64,000 nucleotides of DNA from Anaerolineae bacterium (GTDB lineage Bacteria > Chloroflexota > Anaerolineae > Promineifilales > Promineifilaceae). A program made the translations under genes and the position numbers. Location of the stretch: the NCBI GenBank assembly GCA_030425205.1, contig JAUIAP010000003.1:62001-126000 (forward strand). Direction: 5' to 3'. Of this stretch, positions 6,876-10,800 are shown one piece after another. Each line of letters starts with the position of its first letter. The stretch's first letter is position 1. The notes below the pieces were generated by a model. That model had not been told where the DNA came from. It made no database searches and saw nothing but the letters and a program-made list of their open reading frames with translations.

Positions 6876-7871
6876 TTATATAAACTGCTCCGCATGATGA
6901 CAGGCGACCCAATGCTCTTGCATGGTGCCAAGATTCCGCAACACTGGATCATCTGTCGTGCAGATGTCTGTTGTAAAGCGGCAGCGCGGGTGGAAGTTAC
7001 AGCCGGATGGCGGGTTCGCGGGGTTGGGAACATCCCCTTCCAAAATGATCGAATCACGCACCGCTTCCAAATCGGGATCGGGAACGGGATTGGCCGAAAC
7101 GAGTGCTTGGGTGTAGGGGTGGAGAGACCTGTCGTAAACATCATCGCGGTCGCCTAATTCAACAATGCGTCCCAAATACATCACGGCAACACGATCACTC
7201 ATATAGCGCACCATCGACAAATCATGCGCGATAAAGAGATAGGTTAGCCCGAGCTTCTCCTTCAAATCATCCATCAGATTGACGATCTGTGCCTGAATCG
7301 ACACGTCGAGCGCGGAGATCGGCTCATCGGCAACGATAAAGTCGGGATTGGTCGCCAATGCACGAGCAATGCCGATCCGCTGGCGTTGCCCGCCTGAAAA
7401 TTCATGCGGATAGCGGTTGATCATGTTGGCGTTGAGGCCTACCGTTTCGAGCAGTTCGGCAATGCGTCCCGCGCGATCGGCGCGGCTGCCGATGCCGTGA
7501 ATTTCGAGCGGCTCGGTCAAAATGCCCTGCACGGTCATGCGCGGATTGAGCGACGAATATGGATCTTGGAAGATGATCTGCATTCGATTTCGCATCAAGC
7601 GCAACTGTTCGCTGCTCATCTTTGCGAGGTCTTGCCCATCAAAGACAACGCTGCCTTCCGTTGGATCGAGAAGCTGTAATACGGTGCGTCCTGTGGTCGA
7701 TTTACCACAGCCGCTTTCACCCACCAAACCAAGCGTCTCACCCCGTTTAATCTCAAAGCTCACGCCATCAACCGCTTTAACATGCCCAACCACGCTGCGA
7801 AAAACACCGCGCCGAATCGGAAAGTACTTTTTAAGATTAGTGACTTTTAGCAACGTCTCTTGATCAGACAT
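6876..7871 (-). CDS. oppF: Oligopeptide ABC transporter ATP-binding protein OppF/DppF
   Basis: This is the cytoplasmic ATPase subunit of an Opp/Dpp-type peptide importer, 331 residues. It has Walker [10 protein letters not shown] near 51-59, Q-loop [12 protein letters not shown], signature [14 protein letters not shown], Walker [14 protein letters not shown] and H-loop IAHDLSMV. At the C-terminus is the oligopeptide/dipeptide extension with [10 protein letters not shown] and its cysteines, found in OppD/F subunits that may bind an Fe-S cluster. The start overlaps the 3' end of oppD by 8 bases, so the two are translationally coupled. No permease gene lies nearby. Confidence 0.95.
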
Positions 7872-8871
7872 TTTTTAGCTCCAGTGCGGCCGAATGTTTG
7901 ACCGTTTCCCATTCCCAACAGGCGGAAAAATGACCTTCCTCTACTTGAATGAGTGGTGGATTTTCTTGATGACATTTATCGACTGCAAAGCGGCAGCGCG
8001 GTGCGAACGGACAGCTTACGGGCGCGTTCGTCATGTTGGGAGGTGCGCCGTCGATGGGGACAAGACGTGTTTTGAGGCCGATGCCGACTTCCGGCAAAGA
8101 TTCGAGCAGCCCGAGCGTGTAGGGGTGGCTCGTCGCTTTATAGAGTGCGCGAACAGGGGCGAGTTCGACGATGAATCCCGCGTACATGACGGCGACCTTA
8201 TCGACAAGCCCCGCAACGACGGCGAGATCATGCGTAATCCAGATAATCGCCGTGCCAAACTTGTCGCGTAAATCTTTAACAAGGGCGACGATTTGGGCTT
8301 GAATGGTGACATCGAGGGCGGTAGTTGGTTCATCGGCGATGAGCAGCTTGGGGTCGCAACTGAGCCCGATGGCGATCATGATGCGTTGACGCTGGCCGCC
8401 GCTGAACTGGTGTGGGAAGTCGTTGAGACGGTCGGCCGCATTGGGGATGCCGACCAAGGAAAGCAGTTCGGCCGCCTTCTCGCGTGCCGCCTGTTTGCTC
8501 AACCCCAAATGTTTGCGCATTCCCTCCGTCATCTGCCGCTCAATCGAGAGAACAGGGTTGAGCGATGTCATCGGGTCTTGAAAGATCATGCCAATGTCGT
8601 TGCCGCGAATTTTGCGTAGTTCACGCATCGAGAGTTTGGTCAGATCATTGCCATCGAAAAGGACTTCGCCCTGTTCAATTTTGCCCGGCGGGGAAGGTAT
8701 CAGTTGCAGCAGTGACAACACACCAACCGATTTGCCAGAGCCGCTTTCACCGACAATCGCCATCGACTCACCTGCATCGAGCGTGTAGGAGATGCCATTG
8801 ACAGCGTGTACCGTGCCTTCACTGGTGTAAAAGCGGGTGACTAAGTTCTTGATTTCTAGGAGGTGCTTCAT
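7864..8871 (-). CDS. oppD: Oligopeptide ABC transporter ATP-binding protein OppD/DppD
   Basis: This 335-residue ATPase partners OppF. It has Walker [11 protein letters not shown]-loop [12 protein letters not shown], signature [14 protein letters not shown], Walker [13 protein letters not shown] and H-loop [10 protein letters not shown]. The oligopeptide-binding C-terminal extension carries CPFAPRCRF. It lies 132 bases downstream of the solute-binding gene, beyond a strong terminator, so it may be expressed at a lower level or from its own promoter. The two membrane permeases usually placed between binding protein and OppD are absent from this locus. Confidence 0.95.
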
Positions 8872-9003: not shown

Positions 9004-10800
9004 TTACTCTGCTGGTGGTTTGTTGATCAAGCCCCAGAGGTAATCATAGTATTCGTAAACACCTGTGTTACCAGCATGGTTGGGGTTCTCAACATCGAGG
9101 TTTGCACCAAAGGTCGCGATCACGTCGTTAGCATCAAATGCGCTTCCGTCGTGGAAGGTCACACCTTCACGGAGGGTGCAGACCCACTGTGTCAACTCTT
9201 CATTAGGCGCACATTCGGTTGCCAATGCGGGAACCGCACCGGTGCCACCGATTTCGTACGTGTAGAGTGCTTCTTGCACCTGCTCGCACGCACGCAGTGA
9301 TTCGCCGTCGGTTTCATCTGCACAGAAAAGGCTGATAGGTTCAGCATTTTGCATCCAGACGAACTGACCGCGGTCGCCGGGCGTCATTACGGCGAAGTAC
9401 TCGTTACCGAGTGGGCTAGCGAAGCCGCCTTCAACGTCACCACGATAGGCAACGGCCGAACCACCATGAGCAATTGGCACCATTGGCACCAACTCTTTGA
9501 TCATGTTGTTGGCTTGTTCATAGAGAGGGGCTGCGACCGCTGGGTCGGCAACACTTGCAGCTTCAGCCAGTACTTCGTAGATTTCAGGATGAGCAGCACC
9601 GAACTGTGTGTTCGCCTGTCCAAAGTGGAAGTCCAAGAAGTTGGTTGGATGTGGATAGTCCGCACCCCAGCCGAGCAAATGGAAACCTTCTAAGTTACCT
9701 GCGCTCGATTCTGCGATAAACGCACCTGACTCCATTACCTCAATTGTCGCAACGATGCCGAGATTGTTCTCAAGCTGTGCTTGCAACTCTTGGGCGACGA
9801 GGCCGGGTTCTGGCAAGTAGCTGCGGAAAACGTCACGATAGTAGATGGTCGTCTCGAAACCATCGGGGTAGCCAGCGTCTGCCAACATTTGACGTGCAGC
9901 TTCTGCGTCGAAGTCGTACCATGATTCACCTTCGCAACCGTTTGGAATGGCGCATGGGGTGAAGTGCGAGGCAACTTCTGAACCACCGGGGTAGAAGTTG
10001 TCAACGATACGCTGACGGTCAATACCCATTGCAACCGCTTGACGGACTTGAACGTTGTCAAATGGTGGGAAGGTGTTGGTCATCCCGAAGTAGAAGATGT
10101 TGAGCGCAGGACGCTCGATCAGTTGCAGTGAATCATCGTCAGCAATTGTGTCGAAATCATCTGGGCTGGGGTTGTCGATACCGTCAACTTGACCAGATTG
10201 CAGTTCGAGCAAACGTGCTGCACCTTCAGATGCCCAACGGAAAACGAGCTGATCAGCTACGGCTGGCTCGCCCCAGTAAGCTTCGTTCTTGCTGAAAATG
10301 ATGCTGTCGCCACGGTTCCAAACATCAACTTTGTAGGGGCCTGTGCCAACGGGCGCCTCAAGAATTGCACCAGTGCCACCTGTTTCGTTCAGGTAATCAT
10401 CTGAGAAGATTGCGAATGCGGCAAATGCAATTTTAGCGAGGAACGCTGGGTCTGGGTTACAAAGATCAAAGGTGACTTCGTATTGGCTGGTTGCTTCAAT
10501 ACGCGAAAATGCGCCAGCACAGCTGTCATCAACAACTGGGTCGAGGGCGGCAAACTCCATCATCTCTGGCTCTTCGGTTGCTTCTTCAACCATCGGTTCT
10601 TCCGTTGCGACGGCTTCGCTCACTTGCGTGGCGGCCGATTCAACCTGTTCAACCACAGCCGTTACATCAATGTTGGCATCGGTTGCCAATGCTTCCACTT
10701 GATCGACAGCTTGGTCGATTTGCTCTTGTGTTGCAGCATCGCACGCAATGGCGACCACGGCAAGAACAAGAGCGAAAAAGAGTAATCTTAAATTCTTCAT
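9004..10800 (-). CDS. Peptide-type ABC solute-binding lipoprotein (family 5) with permuted domain order
   Basis: This is a secreted lipoprotein receptor for an Opp-type importer. The signal peptide ends in a lipobox (VAIAC, Cys20), followed by an acidic, Ala/Glu-rich linker to about residue 85. The family-5 domain then starts in its middle (SRIEATSQYEVTFDLCNP). It proceeds through GTGPYKV, the LELQSGQVDGID helix, FDNVQVRQAVAMGIDR and LLGWGADYPHP to the normal C-terminal segment (SPLGNEYFAVM). It continues into what is normally the N-terminal segment: NAEPISLFCADETDGES near 486 and LREGVTFHDGSAFDANDV near 544-561, ending at 598. The order is therefore circularly permuted. GGAGAAG precedes the ATG. 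Confidence 0.9.
   Translation of the reverse strand: MKNLRLLFFALVLAVVAIACDAATQEQIDQAVDQVEALATDANIDVTAVVEQVESAATQVSEAVATEEPMVEEATEEPEMMEFAALDPVVDDSCAGAFSRIEATSQYEVTFDLCNPDPAFLAKIAFAAFAIFSDDYLNETGGTGAILEAPVGTGPYKVDVWNRGDSIIFSKNEAYWGEPAVADQLVFRWASEGAARLLELQSGQVDGIDNPSPDDFDTIADDDSLQLIERPALNIFYFGMTNTFPPFDNVQVRQAVAMGIDRQRIVDNFYPGGSEVASHFTPCAIPNGCEGESWYDFDAEAARQMLADAGYPDGFETTIYYRDVFRSYLPEPGLVAQELQAQLENNLGIVATIEVMESGAFIAESSAGNLEGFHLLGWGADYPHPTNFLDFHFGQANTQFGAAHPEIYEVLAEAASVADPAVAAPLYEQANNMIKELVPMVPIAHGGSAVAYRGDVEGGFASPLGNEYFAVMTPGDRGQFVWMQNAEPISLFCADETDGESLRACEQVQEALYTYEIGGTGAVPALATECAPNEELTQWVCTLREGVTFHDGSAFDANDVIATFGANLDVENPNHAGNTGVYEYYDYLWGLINKPPAE

Follow-up and report, generated by a model that had tools for sequence, protein, structure and literature searches.

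A circular permutation in family-5 (cluster C) solute-binding proteins in the gene context of Dpp/Opp-type importers

The closest described system is the dipeptide importer DppABCDF of E. coli with its cluster C binding protein DppA (PDB codes 1dpe, 1dpp, 8z1y and 8z1z), in which R383 binds the carboxylate and D436 the amino group of the dipeptide (PMC12136057). A naturally circularly permuted ABC binding protein has been described in Treponema pallidum; this protein, TpMglB-2 (Tp0684), is membrane-tethered, has the cluster B sugar-binding fold with D-glucose as ligand and founds its own family, named 'Cluster Bc' (PMC4990184). Two binding domains on one polypeptide are found in GlnPQ, where both domains bind amino acids and are linked to the permease (PMC8025302). 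For cluster C, searches of the open-licence literature found no report of a natural permutation; they yielded engineered sensors and, as a natural case, the cluster B protein. Natural circular permutation is rare, and cases with a clear family, an origin on a single branch and close unpermuted relatives are useful.

Here we describe a gene on the reverse strand (9004..10800) of a 64,000-nucleotide stretch of DNA from an Anaerolineae bacterium, the whole of which is referred to as the window. The encoded protein is a real, old and inherited variant of a common transporter part, with its front quarter moved to the back. With a probability of roughly 0.85, we read it as a permuted cluster C lipoprotein of a Dpp/Opp-type importer, which acts as a peptide-binding flytrap and belongs to a family of single origin. 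It shares with DppA the cluster C fold, both dipeptide anchors and the types of partner proteins, including a permease with a scoop-like motif, and the same lobe-closing mechanism would be expected. In contrast to DppA, its order is rotated, so that the equivalent of DppA residues ~7–122 follows that of residues ~119–507, a predicted lipid anchor and a spacer are located at the new N-terminus, and four extra cysteine pairs are present. With TpMglB-2 it has in common the natural permutation, the predicted membrane tether and the founding of a family of its own, but it differs in protein family and break point, and its sequence and fold matches are cluster C proteins and its Pfam family is SBP_bac_5, rather than the cluster B (type I) fold.

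Segment order and predicted fold

The open reading frame starts with ATG and encodes 598 amino acids in one uninterrupted frame. Residues 1–20 (10741..10800) form a putative signal peptide ending in the lipobox VAIAC (residues 16–20), which predicts lipidation of Cys20; a lipobox-like motif is present in 126 of the 130 permuted family members in which it could be tested. A helical, acidic spacer modelled with low confidence (residues 21–93, 10522..10740) separates Cys20 by about 70 residues from the domain proper, which begins near residue 94; in some relatives this place is occupied by an SBP_bac_3 or a Peripla_BP_6 domain. The middle and C-terminal part of a normal protein, here termed segment B, comprises residues 94–476 (9373..10521) and corresponds to residues 119–507 of DppA (1dpe) according to the VIA and phmmer alignments. 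It is followed by a joint which connects the old C-terminus to the old N-terminus (approximately residues 474–483, 9352..9381, ..TPGDRGQF..), and by segment A (residues 484–592, 9025..9351), the normally N-terminal ~110 residues, which correspond to DppA 7–122. All these features lie on the reverse strand.

The swapped order is evident from alignments with proteins of known structure. The Pfam profile SBP_bac_5 matched the protein with 252.4 bits (cut-off 32.4) in two stretches, the better of which places residues 96–398 on profile positions 63–366, the start of the profile being absent there. A phmmer search against the PDB aligned residues 99–469 with residues 132–507 of 3tpa and residues 488–588 with residues 18–125 of the same chain, and 3m8u and 5f1q gave the same swapped order. 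When the sequence spanning the joint was searched against the PDB, no chain matched both sides in the permuted order.

A full-length AlphaFold2 model built with 45 family members as input reached a mean pLDDT of 89.8 and a pTM of 0.81, its weak part being the N-terminal signal and spacer. As VIA is a sequential aligner, the two pieces were fitted separately. Residues 94–476 superimposed on 3m8u 144–531 with a Z-score of 29.8 (381 residues, 2.5 Å) and on 1dpe 119–507 with a Z-score of 28.6. The C-terminal 122 residues modelled alone gave a best model with a mean pLDDT of 89.8, while the others ranged from 71 to 84, and segment A was placed on 1dpe 7–122, 3m8u 31–146 and 3tpa 14–129 with Z-scores of 6.9–7.4; the value of 7.4 falls in a range which unrelated folds can reach and a Z-score of about 7 is by itself indecisive, but the sequence alignments agree with this placement. 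The Foldseek E-value of this segment was weak (2e-3), and the matches listed were overwhelmingly cluster C proteins. Both pieces thus fit complementary parts of the same cluster C chains, and together they tile the normal DppA chain once (7–122 and 119–507), in swapped order and with almost no overlap or gap. The preliminary description of this locus had proposed a circular permutation of an OppA-type protein whose mature form starts in mid-domain; the first point is borne out by the swapped PDB alignments and the separately fitted model pieces, the second by the beginning of the domain near residue 94, behind lipobox and spacer. From the two piecewise alignments we infer that segment A would close onto segment B to form one domain.

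Two other arrangements of the C-terminal segment have to be considered. It might be an additional domain, a duplicated fragment attached to a truncated binding protein, an independent fold which the preliminary description had itself named as a result that would speak against a permutation. Segment A can indeed be predicted alone with fair confidence, but what it matches is exactly the part that is missing at the N-terminus (1dpe 7–122), it complements segment B along the DppA chain, it is under the same constraint as the rest of the domain, and a second segment A was found in no permuted protein; we therefore consider this explanation very improbable. Scarcely more credible is a strand-swapped dimer, with segment A filling in the fold of the adjacent molecule. 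Among cluster C proteins, pneumococcal AliC (8qlh) is known to form a domain-swapped dimer, and the joint could serve as a hinge loop, but the intramolecular AlphaFold2 model is confident and the length of the joint suits a normal link between adjacent termini. The intramolecular permuted domain, with the old N- and C-termini linked by a short loop, thus appears as the best description of the fold.

At the break, normal-order relatives retain an uninterrupted sequence, which in the protein L099 reads 'FEYYEYMWGGF-DDDSV-ITAVTAIDEYTV'. The two ends of the permuted protein had been suggested to meet at a natural break, running from YEYYDYLWGL to SRIEA, and this unbroken sequence matches that suggestion. 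The new termini are located in a loop around DppA residue 120, away from the two residues that clamp the ligand. In OppA and DppA this region belongs to domain II, outside the ligand-clamping lobes.

A permuted family and its single clade

When about 85,000 genomes, each of a species, were scanned, 198 relatives were obtained, the best 80 of which cover nearly the whole permuted query with 54–72% identity; two isolates, Bellilinea caldifistulae (L004) and Thermanaerothrix daxensis (L015), contribute contigs to these 80. Profile HMMs built from residues 480–592 (segment A) and 98–470 (segment B) separated the relatives cleanly by segment order into 138 distinct permuted and 29 normal-order proteins. 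In all 138 permuted homologues segment B precedes segment A, instead of the canonical order of N-lobe start, middle and C-terminus, and segment A scored between 70 and 213 bits. The joint measures 8–13 residues in 136 of these proteins and 17 at most. The preliminary description had suggested that the join is well formed, that a whole family might exist and that proteins of the same order and a predicted structure should be sought; the joint of 8–17 residues in 138/138 proteins, the homologues themselves and the swapped fit of the AlphaFold2 pieces to DppA (1dpe) answer to each of these points.

These data also bear on the possibility that two genes or a mis-joined contig simulate the rearrangement, a case which had been named as a potential refutation. 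In its favour stood only the unusual order, seen in one draft genome of 108 contigs. Against it stand 138 distinct permuted proteins from many genomes, named isolates included, the single uninterrupted frame, the uniform joint length and cysteines specific to the permuted proteins, so that an assembly or sequencing artefact is effectively excluded.

The carriers of the permuted family are mostly Chloroflexota. Of 400 Chloroflexota genomes sampled, about 56 were counted to have a match running across the joint. Such a match was also present in 4 of 198 genomes from the phylum to which an Acidimicrobiia record belongs, and the remaining matches in this phylum start after the joint, as expected for normal-order proteins. 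One permuted gene was detected in a metagenome-assembled genome labelled Acidobacteria (L076), a label which could result from a binning error. None of 3736 matching plasmid records covered 80% of the query, and the four plasmid matches examined (L170–L173) all have normal order. The Chloroflexota genome G351 carries tandem pairs of permuted genes at two places (L111 2929–6347 and L112 2541–5982) and thus at least four copies. Domain models which cover only the middle of family-5 proteins conceal the permutation, and the members therefore pass as ordinary substrate-binding proteins in family scans.

A FastTree phylogeny based on segments B and A together united all 138 permuted proteins in a single clade that contains no normal-order protein (support 0.99). 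This result leans on the combination of both segments, as one error arose with segment A by itself, and segment B by itself reproduced the split at poor support. In an IQ-TREE analysis of 67 proteins, the permuted clade obtained an ultrafast bootstrap value of 100; its sister among the sampled normal proteins is L116, weakly supported (86). Relative to the 29 normal-order proteins, the permuted proteins hence form one clade, consistent with a single origin: the permutation would have arisen once and then been inherited. The normal-order Chloroflexota family-5 lipoproteins L099, L100 and L101 have the same break-region sequence as the permuted proteins and the top segment A scores among the normal relatives (90–103 bits), but differ from them by the canonical order and by the lack of the cysteine at position 114. 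A duplication or fusion followed by truncation is a plausible route to the permuted order. None of the permuted proteins contained segment A twice within a frame, and no intermediate was seen; the tandem duplication proposed in the preliminary description is therefore not demonstrated.

Ligand anchors, cysteines and partner genes

The residues equivalent to R383 and D436 of E. coli DppA are Arg326 (codon 9823..9825) and Asp381 (codon 9658..9660, both on the reverse strand), which were placed by counting along the alignment with the DppA of Yersinia, a close relative of the E. coli protein, the matched range of which is numbered as the E. coli chain. Arg326 is conserved in 135 and Asp381 in 136 of the 138 permuted proteins. 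With both anchors kept and a dipeptide-type transporter gene context, the protein most likely works as a Venus flytrap of the DppA type, and by analogy it would close on peptides with R326 holding the carboxylate and D381 the amino group. In the NCBIfam DppA equivalog model NF043070 it scored 181.3 bits, below the cut-off of 1005.

A permuted protein with a ligand other than a peptide, such as a nickel chelate, haem, glutathione or a sugar, has also to be weighed. The ligands of family 5 are many, HbpA/GbpA are among the nearest relatives of known structure, and the pocket may differ, with an arginine at position 322 (R322) in 135/138 permuted and 0/29 normal proteins. Both DppA anchors for the peptide ends are retained, however, and the gene context is of the Dpp/Opp type, which makes a non-peptide ligand rather unlikely. 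A dipeptide or short-peptide importer is accordingly the best reading of the system, other family-5 ligands being less likely. Arg322 (codon 9835–9837) lies four residues before the carboxylate anchor, and its distribution makes it a possible candidate for a residue of ligand specificity.

C283 and C289 occur together in 127 of 138 proteins and are both missing in 11, and C530 and C541 occur together in 115 and are both missing in 23, with no protein having a single cysteine of either pair; this strict co-variation points to two disulfides. At position 114, every permuted protein that has a residue at this site (133) carries a cysteine, as against 0 of 29 normal proteins, and C493 (137/138 versus 1/29) and C505 (137/138 versus 4/29) are similarly distributed. 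C94 and C114 lie on either side of the first strand hairpin that follows the new N-terminus, and a bond between them could secure the new end. In total, disulfides are predicted at 94–114, 283–289, 493–505 and 530–541.

Directly downstream of the permuted gene lies an OppD/DppD-type ATPase gene (7864..8871, reverse strand; ABC_tran and oligo_HPY domains), for which the best NCBIfam model was OppD with a score below its cut-off. It overlaps by 8 bp with a DppF-type ATPase gene (6876..7871, reverse strand; same two domains), whose product scored above the cut-off of NF008453 (dipeptide ABC ATP-binding protein). Within the window only these two ATPase genes follow the permuted gene, and permease genes are not adjacent. 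The matching DppB/DppC pair was found on another contig of the same genome (G000 contig C82, 46133–48227; L129 6134–8228), which indicates a split operon, and the first permease on this contig is 64% identical to the permease of L001. Permease genes of a DppB-type cluster (72 ORFs) and of a DppC-type one (69 ORFs) recur across 80 loci, mostly just downstream of the permuted gene on the same strand, and Dpp/Opp ATPases also recur beside permuted genes. All 70 permeases caught by the motif contain the scoop-like sequence PGDPC..GE[KR]A...C, which includes the pair E-[KR] that a scoop loop should have. The two cysteines of this motif in the DppB-type permease are likewise invariant (70/70, e.g. 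L004 7669–8748). Taken together, the permuted protein would be a membrane-anchored lipoprotein of a Dpp/Opp-type ABC importer with a single permuted cluster C domain, passing its peptide to a DppB/DppC pair powered by the adjacent DppD/DppF ATPases.

Binding domains fused to the new N-terminus

In at least nine members an SBP_bac_3 amino-acid-binding domain is located between the signal peptide and the permuted domain (L002, L009, L052, L053, L055, L066, L070, L079 and L118), and in three or four members a Peripla_BP_6 domain of the branched-chain amino acid type precedes it (L011, L018, L097 and L046, the last three being cut by the end of the contig or stretch). Fused members occupy at least three places in the IQ-TREE phylogeny of 67 proteins. 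Matches of SBP_bac_3 to spacers with 29–34 bits in phmmer searches were rejected as low-complexity linker. No further Pfam family was matched by the N-terminal extensions of L134 (430 aa), L168, L109 and L146, which may represent an unannotated upstream frame or spacer.

The domain composition and the gene context suggest that the fused members may be two-ligand receptors. They resemble GlnPQ in having two binding domains per polypeptide, but one of their domains is of a different class and permuted, and the protein is a predicted lipoprotein. In L002 and L070 the gene for the fusion is followed by genes for DppB, DppC, a redoxin and a GlnP-type permease, and L058 has a separate trio of SBP_bac_3 protein, permease and ATPase genes directly upstream. 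The redoxin/AhpC-like gene recurs in operons with an SBP_bac_3 fusion and lies between the genes of the DppC-type and the amino-acid-type permease (L002 9997–10512, L070 9896–10414, L052 10139–10744). As a tentative and still doubtful extension, the permutation may have shifted the N-terminus, together with the lipid anchor, out of domain I into domain II and thereby left the N-terminal side open to the repeated fusion of SBP_bac_3 or Peripla_BP_6 domains, and the fused two-ligand lipoproteins might feed a dipeptide and an amino-acid importer encoded in one operon.

Normal-order and permuted proteins exist side by side and can be compared in their stability and folding and in how they deliver to one type of importer. 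The family suggests that the anchor point of a binding protein can be moved while the ligand clamp and the set of partners are spared, that new cysteine pairs may hold the new ends in place, and that entire additional binding domains are tolerated at the new N-terminus.
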